IMG/VR virus record: IMGVR_UViG_3300032291_002992
Span: 1 to 40,084 of that record
Reading direction: 5' to 3' (one strand)
From: a virus
DNA length: 40,084 nucleotides
The notes under the pieces were generated by a model. It had not been told where the DNA came from and searched no databases. It worked only from the letters and a program-made list of their open reading frames with translations. Positions within the stretch are counted from its first letter, which is position 1. The number at the start of each line of letters is the position of its first letter. Of the stretch, positions 18,670-33,642 are shown one piece after another. Both the position numbers and the translations under genes were made by a program.

Positions 18670-18843
18670 TGTCCTTTCAGTATTTATGCCGGCACAAATA
18701 CCATCACGCACTTTGGTATCGGCACTGCGCTCTCCGGAGCAGGTAAGTTGCTGTACAAAGGCGCGCTAATCGCTTCGCTGAATGTGTCCAACGGCATCAC
18801 GGTGCAGTTCAATACCAATCAGCTGACAGTAACTGAGGATTAA
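18670..18843 (+). pseudogene. 5'-truncated structural-type gene fragment
   Basis: From TGTCCTTTC (18670-18678) the frame runs without an ATG to TAA at 18841. It encodes about 55 residues that look like a genuine protein C-terminus (AGTNTITHFGIGTALSGAGK, LLYKGALIASLNVSNGITVQ, ending TVTED). No start codon of any common type precedes the conserved-looking part. Unlike the other TGTCCTTTC copies, no second box follows at the usual spacing. It looks like the tail end of a lost virion gene. Confidence 0.45.
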
Positions 18844-18848
18844 AAACC

Positions 18849-18884
18849 TGTCCTTTCATCATTTTTAAGATATCTACAATTTTG
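18849..18884 (+). promoter_or_regulatory. Two-box phage promoter candidate, copy 2 (head operon)
   Basis: Box 1 TGTCCTTTC is at 18849-18857 and box 2 ACAATTTTG at 18876-18884; the start codon at 18890 is 33 bases after box 1. It would drive the protease and capsid genes. Confidence 0.6.
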
Positions 18885-18889
18885 GTATC

Positions 18890-20206
18890 ATGAGTTATTC
18901 CACAATATCAGCAATACTCAGAGGCCGGTGGCTCATTGACACCAGCTATGCGGAAACGCAATTGCCGTTAATTGTTGGGATGATCAAAAATCATCAGGTC
19001 AATTTTGCTTACCGCGGTGAAAACCTTGCGCAAAATGAGCAGAAACAGACAGAAGCCATCCTCATGGCTACCGTTGCAGGTAAAGCTGTTTACAAGGTAG
19101 GCAAGTGGACAGAGATGACATCTCTACCTGATGGCTCCATTGCGTTTGTTGATCTGGTTGGCCCAGTTATGAAGTACGGTGGTATGTGCAGCTACGGATC
19201 TATTGATCATGCCAATATCCTTCGTAAACTCGACAACGCCCCCAATGTATCCGGGGTGATCCTGAACGTGGATTCTCCTGGTGGGCAAGTTGATGGCACT
19301 ACTCTTTTGGCTGACCAGGTGAAAGCCATGGGTAAGCCCATTATAGCCATGGTTGATGATGGCCTGATGGCCAGTGCTGCCATGTGGATCGGTTCAGCCG
19401 CCAATGAGATCTACGCCACCAAGAAATCCGATTCATTCGGATCCATCGGCGTTTACGCCACCCTGTACGATTGGAATGCCTACCTAAAAAAAGAAGGCAT
19501 CCCTGTTCATGAGATCTACGCTCCCCAATCCGAAGAAAAGAATAAGGATTACCGCGATGCCCTCAACGGTGACTATTCGGGTATGAAAGATGACCTTAGG
19601 CAAATCGCTGACACTTTTATAGAAACCATTTCCGAGAACCGGCCCAAGGCAGTATCACAAAAAGACAAATGGAGCAAGGGCGGCATGTTTAACGCAAAAG
19701 AAGCCACAAAAATGGGACTTATAGACGGTATTAAATCATTTGACCAGATCGTAGATCGGATCTCTACGCTGGCCAGCAAGTTTTCAATTAATAAAAAACA
19801 GAATACAATGAGCGCAGGCGCTTTTCAAAAAACAATCGCTGCAGCAAAGGTGGATGCCTTTGAAGTGGTGGAGAATGGTTTTCTTCTGAGCGAAGAAGCC
19901 ATTAACAACATCGACACTGAACTGGCTACCCTTGCCACTCAGGTAGAAGATCTTACCTCGGCTGCTGAGCAATCCCGTATAGCATTTGCCAACGTGGAAG
20001 CCGCCAATACCGAGATCGCCGGCCAGCGTGATGCCGCCCAAGTTCGCATCACAGAACTCGAAACAGAACTGGCCGCGCTCAATGCTGCCACCATAGCCCC
20101 CATCAGCACAGCAAAAAGTGAGGATGAATTTGGTGCAGATCCTGAGGCCAAGTACATGACCAGCATAGATGCCGAAGCGGCAAGGATTCGGGCTCGCAGA
20201 AAGTAA
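18890..20206 (+). CDS. S49-family head maturation protease with C-terminal scaffold
   Basis: A 438-residue protein. Residues 85-290 are an S49 (SppA-like) peptidase domain: GPVMKYGG near residues 91-98 with a possible catalytic Lys, ILNVDSPGGQVDG at 124-136, then MVDDGLMASAAMW with the probable nucleophile Ser162. The last 130 residues are Ala/Glu-rich coiled coil, as in scaffolding proteins. Protease and scaffold in one gene upstream of the capsid gene is the lambda C/Nu3 layout. The protease would remove the scaffold from the procapsid. An internal in-frame ATG at 19808 could make the scaffold alone. Confidence 0.8.
   Translation: MSYSTISAILRGRWLIDTSYAETQLPLIVGMIKNHQVNFAYRGENLAQNEQKQTEAILMATVAGKAVYKVGKWTEMTSLPDGSIAFVDLVGPVMKYGGMCSYGSIDHANILRKLDNAPNVSGVILNVDSPGGQVDGTTLLADQVKAMGKPIIAMVDDGLMASAAMWIGSAANEIYATKKSDSFGSIGVYATLYDWNAYLKKEGIPVHEIYAPQSEEKNKDYRDALNGDYSGMKDDLRQIADTFIETISENRPKAVSQKDKWSKGGMFNAKEATKMGLIDGIKSFDQIVDRISTLASKFSINKKQNTMSAGAFQKTIAAAKVDAFEVVENGFLLSEEAINNIDTELATLATQVEDLTSAAEQSRIAFANVEAANTEIAGQRDAAQVRITELETELAALNAATIAPISTAKSEDEFGADPEAKYMTSIDAEAARIRARRK
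19808..20206 (+). CDS. Candidate nested scaffold protein (internal start)
   Basis: An in-frame ATG at 19808 follows an A-rich stretch and a short basic linker exactly where the protease domain ends, and would give a 132-residue coiled-coil product (MSAGAFQKTIAAAKVDAFEV...). In lambda, scaffold Nu3 is made from such an internal start in gene C. Independent translation is inferred, not shown. Confidence 0.4.
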   Translation: MSAGAFQKTIAAAKVDAFEVVENGFLLSEEAINNIDTELATLATQVEDLTSAAEQSRIAFANVEAANTEIAGQRDAAQVRITELETELAALNAATIAPISTAKSEDEFGADPEAKYMTSIDAEAARIRARRK

Positions 20207-20238
20207 TTCAGACCTATTAAATAAAAAAAAAGAAGAAA

Positions 20239-21123
20239 ATGCCAGATTTATCAGCACTAACCACCAGCTTTGTTGAGCGCGGTGGAGCTATTTTTGAAAA
20301 GAACTTGCTTAACTGGAACTTACGTGGCCAGGGCATCCAGGTTCGCCCAAATGTCAACACGCCCCAGGCAATGACAAAACTTTCTGCCGTTGGTAACCCA
20401 CGTCCGTACACAGCTGCTGATGCGCTGACAAACGGACCCAAGTTCACGGACAGAACGCTGACCGCCTTCCAGTCAAAGTGGGACTACGACTTTGATGCCG
20501 AAGATTTCCGCAACACATACCTGGCATCAGATCCTGACATGCCTTTCTATGAGGCGTCGCTCAATTACATTTCAAGGGCCTTCCTGGATGACATCCAAAG
20601 GAACACCTTGTACCTCGGTGTTCGTAATGCTTCAGGCACAACCGCTGCTGCTATTGCAACCGGTTGGGGTACTGATATCGCTGCCTTGATCACTGCAACA
20701 ACCCTCAGCCCAATTGTTACTGGTGCTATCTCTGATACCACTGGTGTTGACAAATTTGAGTTGATGGTTGCTGGCGTGCCAGCTTGGATGCGGGAAAATG
20801 GTTTCGTCATCTACTGCTCATATGCCAAGTTCGACAACTTCAGGAAAGACTACCGCACCCGGTTCGGCTTCAACTTCGACAAGAATGTTGAAGGCATGTA
20901 CAAGCTGGACAACCTGAATGTTGAGATCCGCCCCGTAGCGTGGATGGGAACTTCAGGCCGCCTTATCGCAACGCTCCAAAACAACCTGGTATTCGGTACC
21001 GATGTTGAGCGTGTGCAAGTTGCCGCATCTCAGCGCAGGAACATCATTGAGGTTCGTCTCATGATGCCCGTTGGCATGGCGATCCAGGACACTGAGGCCA
21101 TCTTCGTCAATGACGTAGCATAA
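20239..21123 (+). CDS. Major capsid protein
   Basis: A 294-residue protein directly after the protease/scaffold gene, with an A-rich leader before the ATG. It lacks signal or membrane segments and has the alpha/beta mix of HK97-fold shells: a helical N-arm, a loop of aromatic and acidic residues (KWDYDFDAEDFRNTY), and a C-terminal domain with VEIRPVAWMGTSGRLIATLQ and MPVGMAIQDTEAIFVN. It is followed by a hairpin terminator, as is usual for highly expressed capsid genes. The call rests on context and overall pattern; no short diagnostic motif exists. Confidence 0.75.
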   Translation: MPDLSALTTSFVERGGAIFEKNLLNWNLRGQGIQVRPNVNTPQAMTKLSAVGNPRPYTAADALTNGPKFTDRTLTAFQSKWDYDFDAEDFRNTYLASDPDMPFYEASLNYISRAFLDDIQRNTLYLGVRNASGTTAAAIATGWGTDIAALITATTLSPIVTGAISDTTGVDKFELMVAGVPAWMRENGFVIYCSYAKFDNFRKDYRTRFGFNFDKNVEGMYKLDNLNVEIRPVAWMGTSGRLIATLQNNLVFGTDVERVQVAASQRRNIIEVRLMMPVGMAIQDTEAIFVNDVA

Positions 21124-21133
21124 ATAATCAATA

Positions 21134-21160
21134 GGGGTAGCCTTACGGGGCTACCCTTAT
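21134..21160 (+). terminator. Terminator or attenuator after the capsid gene
   Basis: GGGTAGCC (21135-21142) pairs with GGCTACCC (21149-21156), extended by one G-U pair, followed by TTATA. The weak T run suggests partial termination, limiting expression of downstream genes relative to capsid. Confidence 0.6.
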
Positions 21161-21173
21161 ACAACCAAATACA

Positions 21174-21422
21174 ATGGCAAAGTCAAAAAACAGCAAACTC
21201 GATTCAGTAGAAGCAGCTCAGGACTTATCACCGGCTTCCGGTCATGAGTTTAAAGTAGGTGAAAAGAAATTCAAATACGTTATCGGAAAGTTCATCCTTC
21301 CATGTGGTGAAAGAACCTCGCTGGAAGCTGCCACAGATGACACCGTATATGAAGAGCTTGGCAATGCTACCATCAATGAGTACATGGTGAAAGCTGGATC
21401 AGCTTGCGTTGAAGAAATCTAA
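21174..21422 (+). CDS. Small virion-associated protein
   Basis: An 82-residue protein between capsid and tail-tube-like genes. A short charged start is followed by a beta-rich core (FKVGEKKFKYVIGKFILPCG) and an acidic helix. Size and position fit a head decoration, head-tail joining or tail chaperone protein, but no motif decides between them. Confidence 0.5.
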   Translation: MAKSKNSKLDSVEAAQDLSPASGHEFKVGEKKFKYVIGKFILPCGERTSLEAATDDTVYEELGNATINEYMVKAGSACVEEI

Positions 21423-21441
21423 CATCAAAAAATAAAATAAC

Positions 21442-21987
21442 GTGCCATACAATTTTTCAAACATTACAACAACCGTGGTGGGCAATGCTGATGTAAAACC
21501 AGGCCACTCAGATGTAGCCCTGTTTGCTCCCATTGAAGAGTTTCTCGTCCTGGCAAACCCATCTACATATGCCGTTGCTGGGGATCGAAAGAAAATCACC
21601 ACCGCGCATACTTTTTCGTCTCCTAAGGGTTTTGCCCAAATGAGGGCTAAATCTGGATCTGTTCGTCAGGAAGGATCCAATGCCGTTGGCGAAAAAGGTG
21701 GCCTGGTACCCGTGTACCAATACCTGATCACAGTCAAAGGTCATTCAGCTGTGATTGAAGAGTGGCTGGAAGAAGCCCTCAACTCAGATGGCATCTGGCT
21801 GTTCAACTCGCCTGAGTGCGGGGTGAATGCTTATGTCCAGCTGGGGTCATCTTGCAACCCCGCCCAGATCAGCGCGTACACTTCAAAGAGTGGATCACGC
21901 AATGACGGTGGTGTGCGCGAGTATGAGATCACCATCCAGAGCAATGACAAGTACTGGTACTCCGGTGCTGTCACCATCAAAGCGTAA
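21442..21987 (+). CDS. Putative major tail (tube) protein
   Basis: A 181-residue protein starting with GTG at 21442 after an A-rich leader. It is beta-rich with many Gly, Ser and Thr and no membrane segment, ending DGGVREYEITIQSNDKYWYSG, a strand pattern typical of tail-tube subunits. It sits between the capsid gene and the tape-measure region. No tail-sheath gene is seen nearby, which fits a siphovirus. The assignment is contextual. Confidence 0.5.
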   Translation: MPYNFSNITTTVVGNADVKPGHSDVALFAPIEEFLVLANPSTYAVAGDRKKITTAHTFSSPKGFAQMRAKSGSVRQEGSNAVGEKGGLVPVYQYLITVKGHSAVIEEWLEEALNSDGIWLFNSPECGVNAYVQLGSSCNPAQISAYTSKSGSRNDGGVREYEITIQSNDKYWYSGAVTIKA

Positions 21988-21995
21988 CCAATTAG

Positions 21996-22018
21996 CCCCG
22001 GTGTAACAGCCGGGGTTT
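21996..22018 (+). terminator. Weak terminator after the tail-tube-like gene
   Basis: CCCCGG (21996-22001), loop TGTAACAG, CCGGGG (22010-22015), then TTT. It is a stable GC-rich stem with a short T run. Confidence 0.5.
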
Positions 22019-22034
22019 AACCAACTCCCAAGCA

Positions 22035-22241
22035 ATGAAAAAAGAAGCATTTGTATTTGCCTTCAAAAATCCGGAAGTAGCGGATAAGTTTGAAGCTGTG
22101 GACTGCCCACAGGACTTTAAGATCAGGGTACCCCAAGCCAATTGGCCAGCAAACGGCGATCCTGGTTGGTTTTCCGACATCACTCCTGAAGCAGCACAGC
22201 AACTTATAGCTGAGGGATATAACCGGGTGAAGGCTAAATAG
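22035..22241 (+). CDS. Small hypothetical late protein
   Basis: A 68-residue protein with an N-terminal MKKEAFVFAFKNPEVADKFE and a compact aromatic core (WPANGDPGWFSD). The ATG follows a leader without Shine-Dalgarno. A terminator follows 30 bases after its stop. It could be a tail assembly chaperone by position; nothing in the sequence confirms this. Confidence 0.5.
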   Translation: MKKEAFVFAFKNPEVADKFEAVDCPQDFKIRVPQANWPANGDPGWFSDITPEAAQQLIAEGYNRVKAK

Positions 22242-22270
22242 TAGTTTTTCACAGCTCATAACAGTTTAAA

Positions 22271-22296
22271 AACCCTTGCATACACAAGGGTTTTTT
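22271..22296 (+). terminator. Rho-independent terminator
   Basis: AACCCTTG (22271-22278), loop CATACA, CAAGGGTT (22285-22292), with a run of six T at 22291-22296. It ends the capsid-tail transcript before the structured element at 22400. Confidence 0.8.
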
Positions 22297-22399
22297 GTTT
22301 GGTGTTTTCCTCACGGTGTAGACGTTTTTTTCTATTTTCGGATCAGCGATGGCATTATACTATTGCCTTATAAAGTATTCGCGAGCTTTCATTTCCAAA

Positions 22400-22474
22400 C
22401 TACCACAATCGAAATCAGGGAAGCAGTGTCACGCTACGGCGTGGAAGTAAGTATTCCCTGATGGGCTGTGGTAG
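22400..22474 (+). ncRNA. Three-stem structured RNA candidate
   Basis: Three nested perfect stems: CTACCACA (22400-22407) with TGTGGTAG (22467-22474); ATCAGGGAA (22414-22422) with TTCCCTGAT (22454-22462); CACGC (22430-22434) with GCGTG (22439-22443) around TACG. The internal loops are asymmetric, 6 and 4 bases between stems 1 and 2, and 7 and 10 bases between stems 2 and 3. It lies in a gene-free stretch (22242-22525) after a terminator and 51 bases before a small gene. It lacks a T run. It could be a small RNA, a cis-regulatory leader or a DNA structure. No known family recognised. Confidence 0.5.
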
Positions 22475-22525
22475 GCCTGGAAAGAGATGCTGAACCCGCG
22501 CCATTTTTATTAAACCTGCACCCCC

Positions 22526-22678
22526 ATGGAAGCACTTGAACACCAACTGCTGCTGCAGTTTATCCACGACCACCGCCCTGAATTGTTAAGAGCCCTGGTG
22601 TACCTGCTCAGCCGCAATGACACGCCCGTGGATCCCGAGACCCTTTACAACCTCTACTGTTTGCTGGAACATACTTAG
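22526..22678 (+). CDS. Small Leu-rich helical protein
   Basis: A 50-residue frame from ATG 22526 to TAG 22678, predicted wholly helical (MEALEHQLLLQFIHDHRPEL, then RALVYLLSRN and a final YNLYCLLEH helix). A terminator begins two bases after its stop codon, as expected for a real gene end. Function unknown; it sits where tail chaperones are often found upstream of the tape measure. Confidence 0.5.
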   Translation: MEALEHQLLLQFIHDHRPELLRALVYLLSRNDTPVDPETLYNLYCLLEHT

Positions 22679-22679
22679 C

Positions 22680-22698
22680 CCCTCTTCGGAGGGTTTTT
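22680..22698 (+). terminator. Terminator, left copy of the 21-bp flanking repeat
   Basis: CCCTC-TTCG-GAGGG followed by TTTTT, with an extra-stable C(UUCG)G tetraloop. The 21 bases at 22680-22700 are identical to 26606-26626. Confidence 0.8.
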
Positions 22699-22727
22699 CA
22701 GTGAGTGAAAAAATAAATTAGAAAAAG

Positions 22728-22758
22728 TTTGCAAAATCAAAAAGTATGTTTATCTTTG
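22728..22758 (+). promoter_or_regulatory. Host-type (Bacteroidota sigma-A) promoter of the cassette
   Basis: TTTG at 22728-22731 and TATCTTTG at 22751-22758 are separated by 19 bases, an exact match to the Bacteroidota consensus TTTG-N19-TAnnTTTG. The first gene starts 28 bases further on. It would allow transcription from a dormant prophage, independent of phage late control. Confidence 0.8.
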
Positions 22759-22786
22759 ATCTATCAAAAAAACAAATACATCTTTT

Positions 22787-23245
22787 ATGGCTAATCAAAT
22801 CGAACTCGGGTACACACTTACAGATTGCTATCACATGAACGCAAACTACGGCGAATCCCAGCAAAAGCAATATGTGGTAATGGTAGATGGAGAAATTAAG
22901 AATATTTTCTTGAAAGGGTTTGTCAACAAGCCAGCTGATGAAGGTAGAAGTAGAACCTATTATAAAATTGTAGATCTTTCACAGGATAAATTTGCAGAGC
23001 TAAAAGAGATATCAGATAGCCATAAAAAAATAGACTGGAACCACGGTAAGTACCATGTATTTTCCAATCTGCTGACAGACAATCAAGTGAAGGAGTTAAA
23101 CGCAGCCGCTGATGCTTATGTTCAAAAGCTTCAAGAGATTTGCGATCCTGTAAATTTTCGCAATGAGGCCGAAACTAAAGGTAAACTGGCAACCTTTGTA
23201 TCTCAGTTTGAGAGTGTGAATGCAAGTTTCATTTGGGTATGGTAG
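22787..23245 (+). CDS. Hypothetical cassette protein 1
   Basis: A 152-residue soluble protein, first gene after the host-type promoter, with an A-rich leader. It has beta-rich first half (KQYVVMVDGEIKNIFLKGFV) and a helical middle (DKFAELKEISDSHKKIDW, VKELNAAADAYVQKLQEI). No catalytic motif is visible. It overlaps the next gene by seven bases. Its constant company with helicase and IbrAB-like genes here suggests a common function, but I do not recognise it. Confidence 0.55.
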   Translation: MANQIELGYTLTDCYHMNANYGESQQKQYVVMVDGEIKNIFLKGFVNKPADEGRSRTYYKIVDLSQDKFAELKEISDSHKKIDWNHGKYHVFSNLLTDNQVKELNAAADAYVQKLQEICDPVNFRNEAETKGKLATFVSQFESVNASFIWVW

Positions 23246-23583
23246 GGAAAATCCGCTGTTACTCCGTGAGGCTTCAAAGCCTCCGGAGCATATCCGATAA
23301 GGCTTTTTTAGCCAAAGGTTTCGATGGATCTGAAGCCATCATACCTAAAAGCCAGGTACTATGTCCAGATGATGACGTGCAGAAAAGTGAGGCATATTGG
23401 ATCTCAGCGTGGATACTCGAAAAAAAAGAGCTTCAATATAGCACGAAAAAAGAAGGCTGGTTCAATCCATCTACCTACCGAATAGAGCCAGTGATCACCA
23501 CGGTGGTTGAGCGTCATATACCGACAAAAATAGAGCCCAAAAACATTTTACCAGATGATTCCCTCGTTAGAAATCCAATCTGA
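23239..23583 (+). CDS. Hypothetical cassette protein 2
   Basis: A 114-residue protein from ATG 23239 (a TTG at 23233 is also in frame). The core FDGSEAIIPKSQVLC, followed by YWISAWILEKKEL, resembles a small domain seen in phage proteins near replication and helicase genes, with a Pro-Lys-Ser-Gln turn and an aromatic helix; the resemblance is from memory and unverified. It overlaps the helicase gene by 29 bases. Possible helicase partner. Confidence 0.5.
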   Translation: MVGKIRCYSVRLQSLRSISDKAFLAKGFDGSEAIIPKSQVLCPDDDVQKSEAYWISAWILEKKELQYSTKKEGWFNPSTYRIEPVITTVVERHIPTKIEPKNILPDDSLVRNPI

Positions 23584-24763
23584 GGCCATTAGCCGCCTTC
23601 AGTCACTAAAGGTAGGCGCACTATTCATGAGGCCGGGAACGGGCAAGACAAGGCCCGCCGTGGAGCTTGTGAATAGCGTTTATGTGGATCGTTGTATTTG
23701 GCTGGCTCCATTTCAATCAGTTAATCCTCCAATTGAAGGATCAGGGATAGCGGACGAGGTGGATAGGTGGGGGATGAATTGCCCGGTAGAATTTGTGGGT
23801 ATTGAGACGCTGAGTAGCAGCGATAGGGAGTATTTAAGATTGTTGGAGATGGTCAAGCGGGAACGGGTATTTCTGGTTTGCGACGAATCGCTGAAAATCA
23901 AGAATTGGGATGCCATCAGAACCAAGAGAATCATCGAACTATCGAGAGAGTGCGAATACAAGCTGATCCTGAATGGCACGCCGATCAGCCGCAATTTGCT
24001 GGATTTGTGGGCACAACTGGAGTTCTTATCTCCGCTTATCCTGCGGATGCAGCAGGCGGAATACAAACGCACATTCTGTGAGACGGTCAAGATAACCAAG
24101 TACAAGGGCAACAGGATCGTTAATCAGCGGGAGTTTATCGCTGGATACCACAATATCGACTACCTGTACAGCATCATCAGCCCTTATATCTACGAAGCTG
24201 ATCTGCATTTGGATGTTGGGGAGCAGGACATTGATCTGGAATATAAGCTGGAAGACGATTTGCAGGCAGAATACAACCGATTGAAGGAACTATATCTTGA
24301 TAATGAGGTGCTGATGCGGATGAACAATAATATCTTTTTAGAGATGACGCAGAAAATGCAGCACATCTACTGTTGTGCAGAAGATAAGTTCACTATTGTC
24401 AAAAAACTACTAACAACGATAGATCCAGAGCGAACGATAATTTTTTGCAAATTCATCAGCAGCCAAGAAGAGTGTCGAAAGGCTTTCCCAAAGTGCCAGA
24501 TATTGAGTTTACAGGCCAATTCTTATAGCTTGAACTTGCAGCACTACCACAACACCATTTACTGGGATCACACCTGGGATTGGGCAGTAGTTGATCAGAG
24601 CAGGCATAGGACAAAGCGAACGGGGCAGGATCAACCGCTGAAATTCTACCGATTGAACGGCCCGAAATTGGACTTGCTGATGGCCAAAAACAATGAGAAA
24701 AAACAATCAATGCTCCAATATCTGAAAGGGAAAACAGGGGCACAAATCAAAGAAGAAATATGA
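23555..24763 (+). CDS. SNF2-type helicase/translocase
   Basis: A 402-residue protein. Motif I is PGTGKT (27-32, Lys31), motif II DES (110-112, VFLVCDESLKIKN), motif III LNGTPIS, and near the end DQSRHRTKRTGQ is motif VI of SNF2/SWI2 proteins with the Arg fingers. It is compact, lacking the large insertions of chromatin remodellers, and resembles phage SNF2 proteins. It would translocate on double-stranded DNA using ATP. Its stop overlaps the IbrB-like start (ATGA at 24760), so the helicase and ParB-like product are made together, consistent with one DNA-acting complex. Confidence 0.8.
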   Translation: MIPSLEIQSEAISRLQSLKVGALFMRPGTGKTRPAVELVNSVYVDRCIWLAPFQSVNPPIEGSGIADEVDRWGMNCPVEFVGIETLSSSDREYLRLLEMVKRERVFLVCDESLKIKNWDAIRTKRIIELSRECEYKLILNGTPISRNLLDLWAQLEFLSPLILRMQQAEYKRTFCETVKITKYKGNRIVNQREFIAGYHNIDYLYSIISPYIYEADLHLDVGEQDIDLEYKLEDDLQAEYNRLKELYLDNEVLMRMNNNIFLEMTQKMQHIYCCAEDKFTIVKKLLTTIDPERTIIFCKFISSQEECRKAFPKCQILSLQANSYSLNLQHYHNTIYWDHTWDWAVVDQSRHRTKRTGQDQPLKFYRLNGPKLDLLMAKNNEKKQSMLQYLKGKTGAQIKEEI

Positions 24764-25320
24764 ATAAAGAATTCAGAAGTCCGGTGTACAGTGTGATCGC
24801 AGTTCCGCTGGACAAAATCGAGGCCAATGATTACAACCCTAACCATGTTGCCAAAAGGGAAATGGATCTGCTGTACCAGTCGATCAAGTGCGACGGCTAT
24901 ACAATGCCCATTGTCTGCTATTATGACGATGTCCGCGACAAATACGTGATCGTTGATGGTTTTCACCGCTATACCGTGATCATGAGGTACAAGGACATTT
25001 TCGAGCGCGAAAAAGGTATGTTGCCGGTGTCAGTCATTCAGAAGGATATCAATGACCGAATGGCTTCCACTGTCAGACACAACAGAGCCAGGGGTAAGCA
25101 TGATGTAGAATTACAGGCTTCATTGGTGGGGATGCTGAAAGCCGGGTGGGATGAATTGAAGATCATGAAAGAGCTTGGAATGACGCTGGAAGAGGTGCAG
25201 AGACTTATAGGCTTGAAGGGGATCGCCTCAGAAATTAAGGGAGTGCCATATTCTATTGAACGGCAGATCGTTGAGGCAGGGGAAGACATAAAACCGGACG
25301 CATGGGAAGAACAGCGGTAA
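24760..25320 (+). CDS. IbrB-like ParB-fold protein
   Basis: A 186-residue protein. Residues 10-75 show the IbrB-type ParB pattern IEANDYNPNHVAKREMDLLY, then SIKCDGYTMPIV, then VIVDGFHRYTVI with DGFHR at 66-70. This is followed by NDRMASTVRHNRARGKHDVE, a very distinctive stretch of IbrB relatives. The C-terminal half is helical with a possible HTH (DELKIMKELGMTLEEVQRLI). In E. coli, IbrA and IbrB form a prophage-borne pair first linked to expression of immunoglobulin-binding proteins; their biochemical role is unsettled. Its gene overlaps the PAPS-reductase-like gene by 19 bases. Confidence 0.8.
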   Translation: MNKEFRSPVYSVIAVPLDKIEANDYNPNHVAKREMDLLYQSIKCDGYTMPIVCYYDDVRDKYVIVDGFHRYTVIMRYKDIFEREKGMLPVSVIQKDINDRMASTVRHNRARGKHDVELQASLVGMLKAGWDELKIMKELGMTLEEVQRLIGLKGIASEIKGVPYSIERQIVEAGEDIKPDAWEEQR

Positions 25321-26432
25321 GGGGTGTGGAAAATGTGCTGGAAGCAGCGGAGAAGCGGGTGGCGTGGTTGTTCGATAACTACGACAACATCCAGCTATCG
25401 TTTTCGGCTGGTAAGGATAGCACCGTGCTTTTCCATTTATTGAACGAAGAGGCAAAAAAAAGAGATCGGAAATTCATCCTCTACTTTCAGGACCAAGAAG
25501 CCGAATACCAGGCTACCATAGATCTTGTAGAATGGGCAATGAGCCAGCCCAATGTGATCCCTTTGTGGTACCAGGTCCCGATCTTCATGACCAATGCGGC
25601 CAGCCAGCAGCAGCTTTTCCTTTGGGCTTGGGGTACAGAAGAAAAGTGGGTAAGAGAAAAGCATCCATTGGCTATCCACTCGATTGATGTGAAGTACCCA
25701 CGGCGGTTCCATAAGTTTAACTTATGGGTTGGCCAGCAGTTGAGAAGGCGAGAAGGGAAAAGTATATCAGTGATTGGTTTACGGGCTGAGGAAAGCCCTG
25801 ACCGGAGATTTGTGATGTTTGGTGAGGATAGTGAGATGTTCTGGATTCGCAAAAAAAACGAGCCTCACAGGGCTTATCCTATCATTGACTGGCTTTACCG
25901 GGATGTATGGAAATACTTGATTGAAGGCGGTTTTCTCTATAACAAAATCTACGACAAAATGTACATGCTTGGGCACGACATTCGAACAATGAGGGTGTCA
26001 AACTTAGTTCATGAAAAGGCTTTTCGATGTCTGGCAGATTTGCAAGAATTAGAGCCAGATACTTACGATAAGCTGGAGGAGAGGTTGCAGGGCGTTCATA
26101 CGGCAGCAATTTACGCTAAGGAAAACCTGATGTACTCAATCAAAAGCTTACCGGATCGGTTCAATAGCTGGAAGGAGTATAAAGACTTTTTACTGCAAAG
26201 CATCCACCCAGACTTAGCTAAATTATTTGCCTATCAATGGAGCCGTTTCGGAAACACAGATGATGTGGGGGCTTGCAAGTACATGGTGAAGCGTATTCTA
26301 CTCTGTGATTGGGAGGGCAGTATCACCTGGGCGCGGGACTATGAGTTCAATTACTCAAAGGATCAGATTTTGCAAAAGAATGTGTTGAAAAGAGAGGATC
26401 AGATCATTAAAAAATGGATGGAAAGCTTATGA
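25302..26432 (+). CDS. IbrA-like phosphoadenosine phosphosulfate reductase family protein
   Basis: A 376-residue protein. The P-loop of the PAPS reductase/adenine nucleotide alpha hydrolase fold is SAGKDS at residues 35-40 (variant of SGGKDS), then strand FILYFQDQEAEY. Further on, VIGLRAEESPDRR and YPIIDWLYRDVWKYL match PAPS-reductase-type enzymes such as DndC and IbrA. The C-terminal third resembles the DUF3440 extension of IbrA. These enzymes activate substrates with AMP; DndC does so in phosphorothioate modification of DNA. Paired with the IbrB-like gene and a SNF2 helicase, it may modify nucleic acid or regulate host genes. The substrate cannot be read. Confidence 0.75.
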   Translation: MGRTAVRGVENVLEAAEKRVAWLFDNYDNIQLSFSAGKDSTVLFHLLNEEAKKRDRKFILYFQDQEAEYQATIDLVEWAMSQPNVIPLWYQVPIFMTNAASQQQLFLWAWGTEEKWVREKHPLAIHSIDVKYPRRFHKFNLWVGQQLRRREGKSISVIGLRAEESPDRRFVMFGEDSEMFWIRKKNEPHRAYPIIDWLYRDVWKYLIEGGFLYNKIYDKMYMLGHDIRTMRVSNLVHEKAFRCLADLQELEPDTYDKLEERLQGVHTAAIYAKENLMYSIKSLPDRFNSWKEYKDFLLQSIHPDLAKLFAYQWSRFGNTDDVGACKYMVKRILLCDWEGSITWARDYEFNYSKDQILQKNVLKREDQIIKKWMESL

Positions 26433-26605
26433 AAAAGAAAAGAAAAAAAGACGGCAGAGGTGGAGTCAGGGAAGGGGCTGGCAGGCCAGCCGAGTGGGCA
26501 ACTCCAACCACAACAATATCATTTAGGGTGCCTATCTATCTGGCACCTGACATAAAGCATCTGGTCAAGGAATTTTTACTTCGGCAAAAAAACGATTCTA
26601 ACTAA
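26429..26605 (+). CDS. Small basic DNA-binding-like protein, last cassette gene
   Basis: A 58-residue protein from ATG 26429, overlapping the previous stop (ATGA). It begins with a Lys/Arg run and GRGGVREGAGRP, a Gly-Arg-rich segment often placed before small ribbon-helix-helix-like domains (TISFRVPIYLAPDIKHLVKE). It could be a regulator of the cassette or a nucleic-acid chaperone. The terminator starts immediately after the stop codon. Confidence 0.6.
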   Translation: MKKKRKKDGRGGVREGAGRPAEWATPTTTISFRVPIYLAPDIKHLVKEFLLRQKNDSN

Positions 26606-26624
26606 CCCTCTTCGGAGGGTTTTT
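26606..26624 (+). terminator. Terminator, right copy of the flanking repeat
   Basis: CCCTC-TTCG-GAGGG then TTTTT, beginning the base after the cassette's last stop codon. Identical over 21 bases to the copy at 22680-22700. Confidence 0.8.
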
Positions 26625-26626
26625 CA

Positions 26627-26662
26627 TGTCCTTTCTCCCGCCGGTTTCATAGCTGAATTTGC
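26627..26662 (+). promoter_or_regulatory. Two-box phage promoter candidate, copy 3 (tape-measure operon)
   Basis: Box 1 TGTCCTTTC is at 26627-26635, directly after the cassette terminator, and box 2 TGAATTTGC at 26654-26662. The start codon at 26667 is 32 bases after box 1. Confidence 0.6.
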
Positions 26663-26666
26663 TGAC

Positions 26667-27047
26667 ATGGTGAACTATGATGAGGCGAACAGTAAGATAG
26701 TAGGGTGGAGCAAAGACATCCTGCTAAAACTGCGTACTGAAATCAACAACCAGGGCATCCGGCACGTGGCCAGCTCCCGATCTCCCCAAGCAGCAGAAAA
26801 AGCTTTGGTGGCGCGCACTCCCAAAAAAGGTGGATTGGTGGAGCGGGTGTCCTACATCATGCCGCGCCACATGATCTACGTTCACAAAGGGGTGGGCCGT
26901 GGCACCAAGATCAGCCAGGTGGGAAACACCAACAGGAAAGCCAAGCCATGGTTTAACCCCATCATTGAGCAAAACATTGATGGGCTGGCGGACATCGTGG
27001 CCGAGGAACTGGGATCAGGCATTGTAAATAACATTTTAATCAGATAA
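26667..27047 (+). CDS. HK97 gp10-like / minor head-tail protein candidate
   Basis: A 126-residue basic protein with RTPKKGGLVERVSYIMPRHM and a final helix near NPIIEQNIDGLADIVAEELG. This layout (central basic loop, then PWFNP and a terminal helix) recalls HK97 gp10-family head-tail or tail-completion proteins. It is one base before the tape-measure gene and preceded by the two-box element. The family assignment is tentative. Confidence 0.5.
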   Translation: MVNYDEANSKIVGWSKDILLKLRTEINNQGIRHVASSRSPQAAEKALVARTPKKGGLVERVSYIMPRHMIYVHKGVGRGTKISQVGNTNRKAKPWFNPIIEQNIDGLADIVAEELGSGIVNNILIR

Positions 27048-27048
27048 G

Positions 27049-29718
27049 ATGGCAGAAGTAGTGAATAGGCGGGTCAATATTTACATTGACGAAAGCGCGG
27101 GGGCGGTGGCACTGGAGCGGCTGACCAGAAAAGAAAATGAACTGGTGGCCGCCATTGAAAAGGGCAAAAAAGCCGGGAAGGATCTCACCAGAGAGATGAC
27201 GGAGCTGGCCAACACCCAGGGGAAGATCGGGCAGCTCAAAGATGTGATGGACGGGAAGGTGCTGCCATCACTCAGGATGGCCGAGGCTGCAGTAAGCAAG
27301 CTGCGTCGGGAGCTGAGAAACATACCTGCAGATAGTGAAGCGGCGGGGAATAAGTTGCAGGAACTCAGAAAAGCTGAAACTACCCTTAACCAGGTAAGAA
27401 AGGCGGTTAGCGGCGTGGATAATTCGCTGAAGGAAGTGGCCAGTGGCAGCGGGTTGAAAAGGCTGATGGAGTTTGCCGGTGGTGCGTTTCTCGGTGGTGG
27501 ATTGCTGGGGGTGGCAGAAGGTGCATTGAGCGGCCTTAAATCTTTCTTTTCTGGTGCCGTGGAAGAGGCATTGCAGGCAGAAGAAGCTACAGCCAGGTTT
27601 CGGGCGCAGCTGGACAACCTGGGGAGGCTGGATGTGTTTGAAAGGCTGACCGCCGCCGCTGATGAATTTGCCAACTCCCTTGGATTTATCGACAATGATG
27701 AAATAGTGGGAGTGTTTGAGCAGCTGATCAATTACGGTAAGCTGACCGAGGATCAGATCAAAGAGCTCACGCCGGTCATCATTGACTTTGCCGCCAAACA
27801 GCGGATAGATCTTTCAGAAGCTACCAACGTAGTGGTGAAGGCATTGGAAGGCAATGGTAAGGCACTCAAAACCTATGGTGTAGATATAAAGGATGCCAAG
27901 GATGTTACAGAAGCGTTTGGTGTCATCATGGAAGATCTCAAGCCTAAGGTGGATGGAGCAGCCCAGGCAGATGGCGAAACCACAGCCGGTCAGATCAAAC
28001 GAAGCAGGCAGGAGATTGCCAATTTACAGGAGGATATCGGGACAAAACTCCTTCCTGCCGTACGCGCTTTTTTCCAAGGTGTTTCAGGAATAACTGATTG
28101 GGTTTCCCGGCTACTCAGTACGGGTACTATCGTAGGTGGCGAAACACAATTCGGCGCAAATATCAGGGCGAGGGAAGAGCAGCTGGTAAGTCTGCAAAAA
28201 GATTTTGAATCCCAAACCAAAGAACGCCAGGGCCGATTGATACAGGGGCAGGCCGGTTTGATTAAAACATTGGGTGAACAGGTAAAAGCGGCCCGTGGTG
28301 AAGAGAGGGCTAAACTAAAGCAGGAATTTGATGAAGAGGTCAAGCTGTTCAATGGTTATGTAGCTGCTTTTAAGAAAACTGCTGACACCCGCGTGGTTGG
28401 CACTTCATCAGATAGGGGTGGCAAAACCGGCGCCGGTAAAACAAAATCCACTCCCGCCGAAACCCGGGCCGAATTTGAGGAAATAGTTCGCCAAAACGAA
28501 AAAATCCTGGCCCCCATTCTCGCAGGCTTCCGGGAGATCAATGAAGCTGCCCTAAAGGATGTTGAAACCATCAAGGATAAGCTGAAGAAAAACCTGATCA
28601 CACCGGCGGAAGCGGAGCAGGCACTCCAAAACATTGAGCGGGTGCTGAGTAGCCAGCGGGATACGCTGGTTAAGAAATTCGACATCAATCCGGAAAGGTT
28701 GGGTGCAGATGTTCGCACCGGCGCCATAGAAGATACATTTGGGAAAGATGCTGAACTGGGAGCCAAGGAGCTGGGCATCAAAGTAGGCAACGCGATCAAA
28801 GATGGTGTGGATGAAGCGCTCCAATCAAGCGGATCCACTTCACCTGTCCAAGATTTTTTGGACAGGGAACAAGCCAACATCCAGATGCTGTTTGCCAATA
28901 TCCAGGAGGTAAGCAACCTGACAACGGCTATCTCGGATATCTTTTCCCAAAACGATAATGCCAGGCTTGAACAAGAAATTGCCAATAACGATAAACGCCG
29001 TGAATCTACCCGCAGGCTTTATGAGAACAAGCTGATCTCTGAAAAAGAGTACAACCGTCGGGTAGACCAGATCAATAGGGAGCAGGAGAAAAAGGAAAAG
29101 GAGATCCGCAAACGCCAGTTTGAGCGTGATAAAAATGCCCAGACCGTGCAGGCATTGATGTCAGGAGCTATGGCCGTTGTGTCTACCCTCGCTGCCCGGC
29201 CCGGCACGTCTGATGTTGCCACTTTTGGAGTGCTAAGAGGCATTCAAGTGGCACTGGTAGCAGCCACTACCGCCGCCCAAATCGCTGCCATCCGCTCCCA
29301 AAAAGCTCCGCAATTTGAACAGGGTGGATTCATCCCCCAGGGTTCATCTCACCGGCAGGGTGGAATTGCCCTTGTCGATAACAGATCAGGGGCTACAGTA
29401 GGCGAAGTGGAAGGAGGCGAGCCTATCATCAGCAAAAAAGTATATGCCGCCAATCGGCCTCTAATTGATTCACTCATTGCTCAGGGAAGCGGCATGAGCA
29501 TGAACATTCCCAGGATCAGCGATTCTTTTAAGACCATGTTTGAAACGGGCGGGTTCATACCCCGGACGGACAATAGCCAAACGGCGGGATTGGTGGAGGC
29601 TGTGCAGATGCTCAATGAAAGGTTGGCAAGACCTATCCGCGCCAACGTGATTTACGGCGAGTATGAAGAAGTGGATGACAGGATCAACACCATCCGGGCG
29701 CAGTCGATGGTGAGCTAA
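27049..29718 (+). CDS. Tail tape measure protein
   Basis: An 889-residue protein dominated by long charged coiled coils (about 20-130, 310-440, 480-560, 640-700) with two hydrophobic Gly/Ala-rich segments (about 140-175 and 700-750), the usual make-up of tape measures. The C-terminal part has Gly-rich turns (FEQGGFIPQGSSHRQGGI, FETGGFIPR). It sets tail length and passes into the host envelope at injection. At roughly 1.5 angstrom per residue it would give a tail of about 130 nm, within the siphovirus range. It follows the gp10-like gene without a gap. Confidence 0.85.
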   Translation: MAEVVNRRVNIYIDESAGAVALERLTRKENELVAAIEKGKKAGKDLTREMTELANTQGKIGQLKDVMDGKVLPSLRMAEAAVSKLRRELRNIPADSEAAGNKLQELRKAETTLNQVRKAVSGVDNSLKEVASGSGLKRLMEFAGGAFLGGGLLGVAEGALSGLKSFFSGAVEEALQAEEATARFRAQLDNLGRLDVFERLTAAADEFANSLGFIDNDEIVGVFEQLINYGKLTEDQIKELTPVIIDFAAKQRIDLSEATNVVVKALEGNGKALKTYGVDIKDAKDVTEAFGVIMEDLKPKVDGAAQADGETTAGQIKRSRQEIANLQEDIGTKLLPAVRAFFQGVSGITDWVSRLLSTGTIVGGETQFGANIRAREEQLVSLQKDFESQTKERQGRLIQGQAGLIKTLGEQVKAARGEERAKLKQEFDEEVKLFNGYVAAFKKTADTRVVGTSSDRGGKTGAGKTKSTPAETRAEFEEIVRQNEKILAPILAGFREINEAALKDVETIKDKLKKNLITPAEAEQALQNIERVLSSQRDTLVKKFDINPERLGADVRTGAIEDTFGKDAELGAKELGIKVGNAIKDGVDEALQSSGSTSPVQDFLDREQANIQMLFANIQEVSNLTTAISDIFSQNDNARLEQEIANNDKRRESTRRLYENKLISEKEYNRRVDQINREQEKKEKEIRKRQFERDKNAQTVQALMSGAMAVVSTLAARPGTSDVATFGVLRGIQVALVAATTAAQIAAIRSQKAPQFEQGGFIPQGSSHRQGGIALVDNRSGATVGEVEGGEPIISKKVYAANRPLIDSLIAQGSGMSMNIPRISDSFKTMFETGGFIPRTDNSQTAGLVEAVQMLNERLARPIRANVIYGEYEEVDDRINTIRAQSMVS

Positions 29719-29722
29719 AACC

Positions 29723-29758
29723 TGTCCTTTCACTGGCTGTTTTTCATGCTGAAATTTA
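29723..29758 (+). promoter_or_regulatory. Two-box phage promoter candidate, copy 4 (portal operon)
   Basis: Box 1 TGTCCTTTC is at 29723-29731 and box 2 TGAAATTTA at 29750-29758. The TTG start at 29763 lies 32 bases after box 1, the same distance as in copies 1 and 3. Confidence 0.6.
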
Positions 29759-29762
29759 TGCC

Positions 29763-30074
29763 TTGTCAAAAATCATTGAACTATATGAAGTAATCAACCA
29801 AATCGACAGCGGCGAGCCGTTCAGCATCACCTACATCACCGCTGACAGAAAGAAAGGGACCGGTGGCCAGATCAAAGCCTGCAAAAACTGGGTGAAATGC
29901 GATCTGGCCACCATGCCTGAACCCATCCTCAGACGTAACAAGATGTATGAGGTGGCCAGAGATCCAAAGCACATCGAGCATAGAACCAAAAATATCATGA
30001 ACCCGGCAACCAGAGACATCCGCAAGGTTCATATCAGATTGATCACAGAGTTTAACGGAAAACGTGTAGTATGA
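29763..30074 (+). CDS. Hypothetical protein, TTG start, upstream of portal
   Basis: A 103-residue basic protein. The first in-frame ATG is near residue 50, and the residues before it look coding (SKIIELYEVINQIDSGEPFS), so the TTG at 29763 is taken as start. Its end overlaps the portal start (ATGA at 30071). No family recognised; a role in portal or head assembly is suggested only by the overlap. Confidence 0.5.
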   Translation: MSKIIELYEVINQIDSGEPFSITYITADRKKGTGGQIKACKNWVKCDLATMPEPILRRNKMYEVARDPKHIEHRTKNIMNPATRDIRKVHIRLITEFNGKRVV

Positions 30075-31405
30075 TTATTCAAAACGGATTTGGCTTTTCA
30101 ACGAGAGGGGTGGCATTTGTCAGCCTCTCGGGTGACCCTAATCAGGCCGCCCCAAAAGAGCCGAAAGAAACGGATTTGCTTGATACCGATAAATGGGCTC
30201 GCTGGGGCCAGGATAATCTTCTGCCCAAGAAGATGGTAGATGATATTGAGAATTGCAGCGTCCTGATGGGCGCTATTGACGGTAAAGCGAGGTTTGGATT
30301 GGGTAAGGGCGTGAAGCCATTCAGATTGATTGAAACCAAGCCATCGGGTGAAGAAGTGCTGGAGCCGGTGAACAACCCCGAGATAGAAGAGTGGCTGGAA
30401 GAAAGCAACATCTTCATGCAGTCTTTTGGTCTGCTGAAAGATGTTATCGGGTTTGCCAATTTCCACTGCCGGGTGAAGTTCAACAACGATGGCACCAAGA
30501 TCGGCCTGATGATCCGCGATGATGTCACCGAGATGCGCTATGCGAAAAAAGACAAAGCCGGCCGCATTACCCACACATACCTGGCAGCTGATTGGACAAA
30601 AACCAATAAAGAGAACGATAACACCCTGCTCAAGTTTACCCTGCTTCCAGAAATAGGCACGGCCAGCTACCTCTTGAACATGAAGCCCGAGCAGCGAAAA
30701 GGAAAGGAGTTTTCTATCACGGGCCGTGTGCCAGGATGGAACCGCCATTACTACTCCATGCCTACATGGTACGCTGCAAAGAAATGGGTGGATATCGCCA
30801 AGAACGTGCCTTCCATGAAAGCCACGATGTTTAAAAACAACATCCGCATCAAGTACCTGGTGACTATATTCGACAGCTACTGGACAAGGGTATTCGGCGA
30901 TGAGTGGAGTGGTTATGATCTGAAAACCCAAGAGGAAAAAAGGGCAGAGGTTTACGATGCCATTGATAAATACCTGGTGGGCAATGACAATGCCTATAAG
31001 TCGATATTTAACTCAGGAGCATTTGATCCTATTTCAAAAACAACCGTTTCGGATCTCAAGATCGAAACCATACAAGATAGCACTGTACCCGGTGAATTAT
31101 TGCCCGACAGCGCTGCCGCCAATTCTGAAATCCTGTTTGCCCTGATGATGAATCCGGCATTAATGGGGGCCGACACGCCAGGCGGCCCATACAGCGGCGG
31201 TGCTGGGTCGGGCTCTAACATCCGCGAAGCTGCACTGGTGCAGGTGATGATCCAGGAATTTGAACGCCAGCAGCTTTCCAGGATCCTTAACATCGTCAAA
31301 AAAGTCAACGGCTGGCCAGCGGATATCGTTTGGCGATTTCCCGGACTGGTTCTCACCACCCTTGATACAGGTGGATCTACAAAAGAAGTAAAAACAGGAG
31401 GATAG
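30071..31405 (+). CDS. Putative portal protein
   Basis: A 444-residue soluble protein. It shows the usual portal order: an N-terminal segment with WARWGQDNLLPKKMVDDIEN, a middle region around MPTWYAAKKWVDIAKNVPSM, then FKNNIRIKYLVTIFDSYW and a stem-like helix (EEKRAEVYDAIDKYL). The late region LPDSAAANSEILFALMMNPA, then a Gly-rich loop and SNIREAALVQVMI, fits the C-terminal helices of phage portals that choose the packaging vertex. It lies far from the terminase, which is unusual. Call by pattern only. Confidence 0.6.
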   Translation: MIIQNGFGFSTRGVAFVSLSGDPNQAAPKEPKETDLLDTDKWARWGQDNLLPKKMVDDIENCSVLMGAIDGKARFGLGKGVKPFRLIETKPSGEEVLEPVNNPEIEEWLEESNIFMQSFGLLKDVIGFANFHCRVKFNNDGTKIGLMIRDDVTEMRYAKKDKAGRITHTYLAADWTKTNKENDNTLLKFTLLPEIGTASYLLNMKPEQRKGKEFSITGRVPGWNRHYYSMPTWYAAKKWVDIAKNVPSMKATMFKNNIRIKYLVTIFDSYWTRVFGDEWSGYDLKTQEEKRAEVYDAIDKYLVGNDNAYKSIFNSGAFDPISKTTVSDLKIETIQDSTVPGELLPDSAAANSEILFALMMNPALMGADTPGGPYSGGAGSGSNIREAALVQVMIQEFERQQLSRILNIVKKVNGWPADIVWRFPGLVLTTLDTGGSTKEVKTGG

Positions 31406-31406
31406 T

Positions 31407-32384: not shown

Positions 32385-33175
32385 GGTCAGCATTTTTCAA
32401 AAAATGGAGCTATGCCGTTCCCGATAGCTGGAACGAGATCAGCAGCAAAAACTACCTGCCGCTGATGAAAGTGTTTTTCACCGAGTATGAAAATGACCGG
32501 GGGGTACTGATGTTGTTCCGGGCACTGGCAGGCATCCCCTGGTGGCAGTTTTTTGGCATGAGATCCCCCAACCTGATCCCGGCGGCACTCGATGCCACGG
32601 AGTTCTTGTTTAAAGGCAATAGTCTATCCAAAAACCTCCTGCCCTTCTATAAGGGATATGCAGGCCCGGCTGAGGAGCTGAAAAACCTGAAAATGGCTGA
32701 GTTTTGCAACGCCGAGTTTTACTATAACAAGTACGATAAGGACAAAAAACTCGAAAATCTGGATGCTTTTGTAGCCATTATCTACCGGCCCAAAAAGAGC
32801 CGGTGGAAGTATAACTACAAGCTGAATATAGATGGGGATTTTCGCACGCCGTTTAACTCCAATACAACCGGCTACCACCAGAAAAGAATAGCCAAATGGC
32901 CCACCCACGTAAAGCTGGCCATCTTCCACTTTTACCAGGGTGCCAGGGCAACGATCATTGCCCGTAACCACAAGGTCTTCGATAACAATGACGGCGGGGA
33001 AAGCCTGTATGGTCTTTGGTCGATCATGCGCTCAGTCGCTAAAGGCGGGCATATGGGCGATATCGACAAGGTAGCGGATCAGTTTGTCGGCACGGTGTTG
33101 ATGGAGCTGAATGAAACGGTTGTCGAGGCCGAAAGAATCGAAATGGAGCGCAATAAAGTAACTGTGGAACGATGA
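32381..33175 (+). CDS. Hypothetical virion-associated protein
   Basis: A 264-residue protein overlapping its upstream neighbour (ATGA at 32381) and its downstream neighbour (ATGA at 33172). It is rich in aromatic residues (FFKKWSYAVPDSWNEISSKN), has no membrane segment despite hydrophobic stretches, and carries a basic middle (IYRPKKSRWKYNYK). The last 20 residues are a charged helix. Family not recognised; late operon position suggests a structural or assembly role. Confidence 0.5.
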   Translation: MRSAFFKKWSYAVPDSWNEISSKNYLPLMKVFFTEYENDRGVLMLFRALAGIPWWQFFGMRSPNLIPAALDATEFLFKGNSLSKNLLPFYKGYAGPAEELKNLKMAEFCNAEFYYNKYDKDKKLENLDAFVAIIYRPKKSRWKYNYKLNIDGDFRTPFNSNTTGYHQKRIAKWPTHVKLAIFHFYQGARATIIARNHKVFDNNDGGESLYGLWSIMRSVAKGGHMGDIDKVADQFVGTVLMELNETVVEAERIEMERNKVTVER

Positions 33176-33639: not shown

Positions 33640-33642
33640 GAT

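Follow-up and report, generated by a model that had tools for sequence, protein, structure and literature searches.

IbrA and IbrB, the YbdN and YbdM proteins of Escherichia coli K-12, are found in phages, in bacterial genomes and on the E. coli K-12 chromosome, and the papers cited here give no mechanism for them. According to the accessible text of the description of Flavobacterium phage FCL-2, IbrAB and two upstream open reading frames (ORFs) are common to this phage and a host genome, and IbrAB are cited there as possible virulence factors, the helicase not being mentioned in that text (PMC4541368). The present analysis concerns a six-gene cassette that carries such a pair together with a gene for an SNF2-type ATPase. 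It is situated in the IMG/VR virus record IMGVR_UViG_3300032291_002992, which belongs to a phage of Bacteroidota type; the window, i.e., the stretch of DNA analysed, is this whole record of 40,084 bases.

The organization of the IbrA and IbrB genes in the window is similar to that in E. coli K-12, in that both proteins are homologous (IbrA to YbdN, 28% over 313 amino acids (aa); IbrB to YbdM, 43% over 163 aa) and the two genes are adjacent and on the same strand. Despite this similarity, the window pair shares an operon with the genes for an SNF2 ATPase and a small protein, whereas no SNF2 gene is found within the 10-kb E. coli K-12 stretch around ybdNM. The Flavobacterium phages FCL-2 and 2A exhibit the same order as the window (small protein, SNF2, ParB-like protein, IbrA), except that in phage 2A an additional ORF separates the small protein from SNF2.

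The recurrent core of the cassette consists of SNF2, IbrB and IbrA, usually with the small protein upstream. IMG/VR and a genome collection were searched with an SNF2 alignment alone, such that the partners were not selected for; all six SNF2 seeds were taken from IbrAB-bearing phages. The viral set comprises the best 80 of 236 relatives and the genomic set 60 loci, and the counts of linkage and of conserved residues given here include duplicates (127 of 140 SNF2 and 204 of 219 IbrA proteins are distinct). Profiles of both IbrA and IbrB were detected in 76 of the 80 viral and 51 of the 60 genomic loci. When only loci with 3.5 kb or more of DNA downstream of SNF2 are counted, which excludes 27 of the 80 viral and 14 of the 60 genomic loci, SNF2 has both genes close by and in its own orientation in 53 of 53 viral and 44 of 46 genomic loci; of the two genomic exceptions, one (L203) is without IbrB and the other (L216) without either. 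The next gene of the module lies at a median distance of -3 bases from SNF2. The family of the small protein (116 aa in the window) is present in 87 of 146 SNF2 loci, and a divergent relative of it (profile-profile probability 94.6%, 17% identity) in 23 more. An earlier note on this DNA had taken the helicase, the ParB-like and the PAPS-reductase-like products to form one system with the three remaining proteins. Concerning the first three, this linkage bears it out, and the comparison of gene order in other phages and genomes adds the small protein as a fourth gene that travels with them. The six-gene unit, however, was rejected, since the genes for the 152-aa and the 63-aa protein at the two ends of the cassette hardly recur: among the loci examined, the former is found beyond a sibling contig (L013) only in L048, and the latter has no convincing match beyond that sibling.

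Concerning the distribution of the module, the genomic SNF2 loci belong, to judge by record title, mostly to Bacteroidota and Bacillota, with a few others, e.g., Nocardia and Opitutales. A phage collection contains 90 Flavobacterium records that match IbrA, and likewise 90 each that match SNF2 and the 116-aa protein; a Fusobacterium phage, a Streptococcus phage and a Listeria phage fragment each possess SNF2, IbrA and IbrB. The order SNF2-IbrA-IbrB is commoner, whereas the window has the rarer SNF2-IbrB-IbrA. IbrA is more often found without this SNF2: in a search starting from IbrA (best 80 of 334 viral relatives, behind which stand at least 600 pattern matches), 66 of the 80 loci are without SNF2 within the retrieved DNA, SNF2 being present in 15 of 80 when any ORF match is counted and in 14 of 80 when labelled gene calls are counted. 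The search patterns covered the DES and NG motifs in the SNF2 searches and the PP loop and PIxDW motif in the IbrA search. One terminase family and one integrase family, to which the search for such genes was confined, occur near the module in 3 and 7 of the 60 genomic and in 21 and 9 of the 80 viral loci, respectively.

Within the window, the six ORFs of the cassette lie on the forward strand at 22787-26605, with head-to-tail overlaps of 4 to 29 bases between neighbours, and the tape-measure gene starts 3' of them at 27049 (phrog_28, 2e-10), in agreement with the earlier description of six overlapping genes inside the tail gene block. From left to right, the features are as follows:

22681 to 22699, forward strand: left copy of the repeat CCTCTTCGGAGGGTTTTTC, terminator-like, cassette boundary; exact two-copy match, with a single copy, one base changed, at the empty site of contig L234
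22728 to 22758, forward strand: Bacteroidota-type promoter-like site TTTG-N19-TANNTTTG; sole match in the window, 0.88 expected by chance
22787 to 23245, forward strand: 152-aa protein, optional, not core; besides sibling L013, only L048 has a homologue (44%) immediately before the 116-aa gene
23239 to 23583, forward strand: 116-aa small beta-rich protein, common, fast-evolving; phrog_5809, 2e-37
23555 to 24763, forward strand: compact SNF2-type ATPase/translocase, 402 aa, core; SNF2-rel_dom 8e-11, phrog_62 4e-54
24760 to 25320, forward strand: IbrB, ParB/Srx-type, 186 aa, core; phrog_2159 1e-81, ParB_N 6e-4 (below the Pfam cut-off)
25302 to 26432, forward strand: IbrA, PP-loop protein with PAPS-reductase fold and DUF3440, 376 aa, core; PAPS_reduct 3e-15, DUF3440 1e-9, phrog_2302 5e-117
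26414 to 26605, forward strand: 63-aa basic protein, lineage-specific, not core; beyond the window phage and sibling L013, only a chance-level match in L001 (E = 0.41)
26607 to 26625, forward strand: right copy of the terminator-like direct repeat; exact match to the left copy

The ORF of the 116-aa protein (23233-23583) begins with a TTG at 23233 and is listed from its in-frame ATG at 23239. The matches to SNF2-rel_dom, PAPS_reduct and DUF3440 exceed the Pfam cut-off; for the 152-aa and 63-aa proteins, no confident family was found in Pfam, PHROGs, NCBIfam-type and PADLOC profile scans. The repeat CCTCTTCGGAGGGTTTTTC occurs exactly twice in the window (at 22681 and 26607), flanking the cassette, with 0.01 expected by chance; the stem of the right copy has 6 base pairs and that of the left copy one pair fewer, and a stricter terminator scan finds the right copy only. 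Of the promoter and terminator formerly ascribed to the cassette, terminator-like copies are thus present on both sides, whereas the single match to TTTG-N19-TATCTTTG at 22728-22758 is a count not above chance. What weight this site has comes from its position and from promoter-like matches that precede the module in three of six inspected relatives (L015, L018 and L021; chance not estimated); the match in L039 lies downstream.

The cassette is a true moron, i.e., a mobile accessory segment bounded by two copies of the terminator-like repeat. A near-identical phage contig (L234, IMGVR 3300044695_006477), found via the flanking genes, is without the cassette and has one repeat copy, and the moron status claimed in the earlier note is thereby upheld: identity to this contig is 99.5% over window 18688-22700 and 93.5% over window 26606-35908, and in L234 these aligned stretches adjoin with a 21-base overlap that is the repeat. 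Its single repeat, in which one base is changed, is flanked on the left as the first window copy is and on the right as the second, as would be expected from recombination between the two repeats or from insertion beside one of them. The contigs L239, L240 and L241 are also without the cassette at this site, with around 0.57-0.66 kb between the flank matches versus around 4.7 kb; the comparison leaves aside L236 and L242-L244, which match the flanking genes only distantly. Among the related contigs found, the cassette occupies the same position only in the 98% sibling 3300034092_002703 (L013). The record 3300027973_000195, which is among L239-L241 and cassette-free at the site, possesses a 79%-identical SNF2 with IbrB and IbrA elsewhere, on the strand opposite to the structural genes and adjoining a 612-aa gene. 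Neither SNF2 nor IbrA has a match in the longest two of the cassette-free records that were searched with them (39,956 and 41,884 bases). Foreign composition was discarded as weak evidence of insertion: the G+C content of the cassette is 0.442 versus 0.477 in the rest, with other windows of comparison at 0.436-0.507, and its tetranucleotide distance ranks 41 of 283 such windows. A separate difference between the two records is a stretch of 3.17 kb (L234:2167-5338) that has no counterpart in the window (junction 18687/18688). It contains ORFs of 139, 478, 224 and 93 aa together with the 5' portion of a gene for 146 aa, of which only the 3' remainder has a match in the window; this implies a natural deletion or insertion in one of the records.

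A moron layout, in which terminator-like copies enclose the genes and a promoter-like site, and a presence that varies among near-identical phages would also suit a prophage defence cassette that, as other morons do, blocks superinfecting phages as an effector or sensing system. In addition, partial PADLOC matches liken the SNF2 core to the defence-system proteins DpdE, ZorD and DrmD, and the window phage has at 10411-11988 a gene for a large serine recombinase, so that it may plausibly be temperate. However, neither full-length ZorD, DpdE or DrmD nor partner models of Zorya, Dpd or DISARM were found among the six proteins; PADLOC gave no match for IbrB or the three small proteins and only weak ones for IbrA (BrxP, DndC), and profile scans of the cassette revealed neither a nuclease nor a toxic effector. 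Moreover, the same gene run is present in FCL-2, which is described, in the accessible text, as without integrases and repressors (PMC4541368), such that the cassette need not serve a lysogen; the lysogen assumed earlier is plausible for the window phage, but not required by the gene run. Defence of a prophage is regarded as unlikely.

The motifs reported earlier are all present, namely MRPGTGKT, DES, LNGTPIS and QSRHRTKRTGQ in the SNF2 protein, DGFHR in the ParB-like protein and SAGKDS in the PAPS-type protein. Catalytic-site loss was looked for in the SNF2 and PAPS-type relatives, and the motifs were found to be conserved instead. In alignments from which short ORFs were excluded, the SNF2 residues of Walker A, DES, NGTP and motif VI are conserved in at least 90% of 158 relatives; Walker A G28, G30, K31 and T32, together with DES and the arginines of motif VI, are retained in at least 148 of 158 (K31 in 157, D110 and E111 in 158, R352 in 157, R355 in 156). 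SNF2 proteins found through IbrA, i.e., free of an SNF2 search pattern, retain K31, D110, E111, G141, R352 and R355 in 14 of 14 cases. By its motifs the protein belongs to the SNF2 family, and DNA translocation by it is predicted. In IbrB, N23, N26, P27, N28, D66, G67, H69, R70, T104, N108, G112 and H114 are invariant in 212 of 212 proteins. The model of the 116-aa protein is confident (predicted local distance difference test score (pLDDT) 91.5), and the structure comparison gave no convincing relative in the PDB (best Z score 3.6).

An SNF2 translocase and a ParB-like protein might also act on replicating DNA, with nucleotide activation by IbrA, as an accessory of replication, partition or repair. 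The translocase motifs and the placing of phrog_62 and phrog_2159 under DNA metabolism in PHROGs would accord with such a role; close relatives manage without the cassette, however, which marks it as accessory, and the position of IbrAB varies among other phages, which makes this role very improbable. Besides IbrB, the window encodes two further ParB-type proteins at 6350-7111 and 7135-9009, the latter (624 aa) with ParB_N, HTH_ParB and a sub-threshold KorB match, and a 226-aa protein with a DnaA C-terminal DNA-binding domain at 5657-6337.

Concerning IbrA, the PP-loop residues S35, G37, K38, D39 and S40 are invariant in 219 of 219 proteins, and so are R19, E66, E164, R168, D196, Y217 and R231; in the IbrA proteins found through SNF2, a set free of the PP-loop search pattern, the PP-loop residues hold in 128 of 128. 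The reductase motif ECGxH is found in none of the 219 proteins, and no cysteine is conserved family-wide among them, the commonest cysteine column being occupied in 127 of 219 (columns counted within IbrA, with no position-by-position alignment to DndC). The AlphaFold2 model (pLDDT 87) is nearest to APS reductase 4bwv (Z score 15.4, root-mean-square deviation 3.1, 182 residues), with APS/PAPS reductases in general at 12.6-15.4, the PAPS domain of human FAD synthase (8ron/8rom) at 15.3 and CysD (1zun) at 14.2. By sequence profile, FAD synthase and CysD rank first among solved structures, with matches that span only 36-68 positions, and CysH comes next. FAD synthase and CysD are adenylyl-transferring enzymes, in which AMP is moved from ATP without a catalytic cysteine. 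Judged by these residues, the label "PAPS reductase" is chemically misleading for IbrA; the fold stands, but not a reductase activity, such that the name denotes the fold only.

The same fold is common to IbrA and DndC, and DndB is classed in the ParB superfamily in the accessible part of PMC10853773, so that an abbreviated Dnd-like system for DNA phosphorothioation has to be considered, as the earlier note had done by way of DndC and of co-occurrence with dnd genes. The likeness consists in a PAPS-reductase-fold enzyme together with a ParB-superfamily protein; the differences are the lack of a conserved cysteine in the IbrA family, a DndC score of the window IbrA far under the cut-off (17.6 bits versus 290.4) and the rarity of DndC in hosts, and on these three grounds phosphorothioation was rejected as the mechanism. 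No match to DndA, DndD or DndE was found among the six cassette proteins in PADLOC or NCBIfam. In 50 host genomes carrying SNF2 (50 of the 60 genomic loci were used), DndC exceeds the cut-off in 1; matches at E 0.001 or better exist in 24 of the 50, and in 23 of these only below the cut-off, where they are probably IbrA or other PAPS-type proteins; matches below the cut-off exist in 5 of 14 control genomes, too. The base rate being unmatched, the counts show rarity and not depletion. Phosphorothioation is thus largely refuted and has only a marginal probability.

IbrA and IbrB form a linked pair that has been swapped as a unit between SNF2 lineages, as shown by distance correlations and by the distribution of gene order on trees. 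The correlation between IbrA and IbrB in pairwise distance is 0.745 (98 loci), 0.805 (65 loci) and 0.812 (45 loci), that of SNF2 with IbrA or IbrB 0.14-0.28 in the same three locus sets. In trees of 100 dereplicated loci, made by a quick method and with some long branches flagged, the order label (84 loci with IbrA first, or AB, and 16 with IbrB first, or BA) forms a single clade on both the IbrA and the IbrB tree (1 change, support 100), whereas it changes 8 times on the SNF2 tree, at least 4 of these changes being forced by well-supported branches. Between the window and L018, for example, SNF2 is around 70% identical and IbrA very different (nonsynonymous divergence (dN) 0.27 versus 0.75); synonymous divergence (dS) was undefined in 11 of 14 comparisons, and no claim of selection rests on dN/dS. 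A terminase control (11 loci, too few to use) gave 0.59 for terminase with SNF2 and around -0.1 for terminase with IbrA or IbrB.

A role in transcription control, in which IbrA and IbrB activate phage or host genes and SNF2 acts on transcription complexes in the manner of RapA, is suggested by annotations and papers that call IbrA/B co-activators or transcriptional regulators (PMC4490671 and PMC8813620, as far as their accessible text goes). It is also the role from which the name IbrAB derives, as "co-activators of prophage gene expression". On the E. coli K-12 chromosome, the pair is retained as ybdNM, repressed by CitR according to the available part of PMC9068703. Homology of the window proteins to YbdM and YbdN points in the same direction. 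The invariant enzyme-type centres of IbrA and IbrB would, however, be superfluous in a plain activator, and the exchange of the pair between SNF2 lineages looks more like an arms race. The work on eib activation, moreover, reportedly demonstrates a requirement rather than a mechanism. Transcription control is not a likely explanation, to about the same degree as prophage defence.

As the best explanation, held tentatively and with modest confidence, a motor-driven, ATP-dependent and non-phosphorothioate nucleic-acid mark that protects phage DNA is proposed. The SNF2 ATPase would track along double-stranded DNA, with IbrB, a ParB/Srx fold with an intact DGxHR pocket, as its putative nucleotide- and DNA-binding specificity partner. 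IbrA would use ATP via alpha-phosphate (adenylylation) chemistry like that of FAD synthase and CysD, and not via cysteine-based sulfur transfer, and would attach or activate a group, so that phage DNA or another nucleic acid receives a covalent mark other than phosphorothioate; the mark would shield phage DNA from host nucleases. In this way the cassette may act in DNA modification or anti-restriction, as had been suggested earlier. SNF2 would represent the chassis, whereas IbrAB would provide the chemistry or the choice of target. The more specific version, in which an SNF2 motor with its small partner forms a chassis for interchangeable IbrAB pairs, each giving a different cysteine-free, ATP-dependent DNA mark or target and swapped under restriction pressure, is rather doubtful.

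Genes near IbrA (within 4 genes) were compared with those further off, the counts being uncorrected for shared ancestry. A small DNA methylase lies near IbrA in 20 of the 80 IbrA-query viral loci (21/491 near versus 4/742 far, p=9e-6), its representative matching N6_N4_Mtase (3e-8) and possessing a DPPW motif; it is present in 4 of 14 of these loci with SNF2 and in 16 of 66 without. A glycosyltransferase-like family (representative phrog_854, 9e-10) is near IbrA in 13 of the 80 loci (14/491 versus 3/742, p=6e-4), one locus of it being among the 14 with SNF2. In Microbacterium phage Hendrix, glycosyltransferase, methyltransferase and acetyltransferase genes adjoin IbrA. In Fusobacterium phage phiFN37, a queuine tRNA-ribosyltransferase and a queuosine transporter are encoded within around 4 kb of SNF2, and this region (L004:2822-9878), in which a second ParB is also found near SNF2-IbrAB, is possibly a 7-deazaguanine modification neighbourhood. 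Of 32 listed neighbour families, 10 were annotated. A family of around 400 aa with a cysteine-containing N-terminus (phrog_16123) is situated directly upstream of SNF2 in 8 of 10 loci, e.g., at L224:68-1279.

Several observations weigh against the proposed explanation. An uncharacterised small family is equally enriched near IbrA (18/491 versus 0/742), such that shared ancestry may inflate all neighbour associations; this family lies within 4 genes of IbrA in 18 of the 80 loci and in none further off, and its representative at L133:1856-2149 has no Pfam or PHROGs match. The methylase is rare in SNF2-query loci (2 of 80 viral, 4 of 60 genomic). In the BA clade, to which the window belongs, C243 and C335 of IbrA are invariant (26 of 26), within a clade in which 196 of 376 positions are invariant and with these columns holding cysteine in 38 and 27 of 219 proteins family-wide; and the fold of IbrA, as modelled, cannot tell AMPylation from other PP-loop chemistry. 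Although weak, the correlation between SNF2 and IbrAB is higher than in nearly all permutations (0 and 1 of 500 were as high), and on the SNF2 tree, too, loci with one gene order tend to group together, with 8 changes versus 15.1 in shuffles. The 116-aa protein correlates with SNF2 only at 0.28 and with IbrA at 0.08; it tracks SNF2 no better than IbrAB does, so that its inclusion in a fixed chassis is a guess. Finally, IbrAB is in print as a prophage co-activator.

No description of an SNF2-IbrAB system was found in the titles or opening abstracts among the open-access papers listed. IbrAB pairs are already known, whereas the SNF2-IbrAB module as a conserved unit, its behaviour as a moron, the test for cysteines and the exchange of the pair are apparently new. 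The link to SNF2, the misleading reductase label and the pair exchange turn a vague annotation into a testable hypothesis, for which natural near-identical phage contigs with and without the cassette provide a ready-made comparison. If the version with interchangeable IbrAB pairs were true, it would constitute the first biochemical role for IbrAB, including YbdNM of E. coli.

Despite general similarities to several known systems, there are differences between these and the cassette. The PAPS domain of FAD synthase and CysD are, alongside CysH, among the nearest to IbrA both by profile and by structure, whereas IbrA has an extra C-terminal DUF3440 domain. CasCysH of type IV-B CRISPR systems, which according to the accessible text of PMC8175902 has a PAPS-reductase fold with a PP motif, is without the catalytic cysteine and is argued on that ground to stabilise AMPylation and not to transfer sulfur, is likened here by description; the partners in the cassette, however, are SNF2 and ParB, and no CRISPR-type family is found among the six proteins. 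SNF2-methylase dyads are described in phages, and DarB protects the DNA of phage P1, in the accessible part of PMC5512222. As in DarB, a DNA modifier, in the cassette only a candidate, would be coupled to an SNF2 ATPase, whereas the cassette genes are separate and include no methylase. The logic of the cassette would thus resemble that of the P1 DarB dyad, with IbrAB replacing the methylase.

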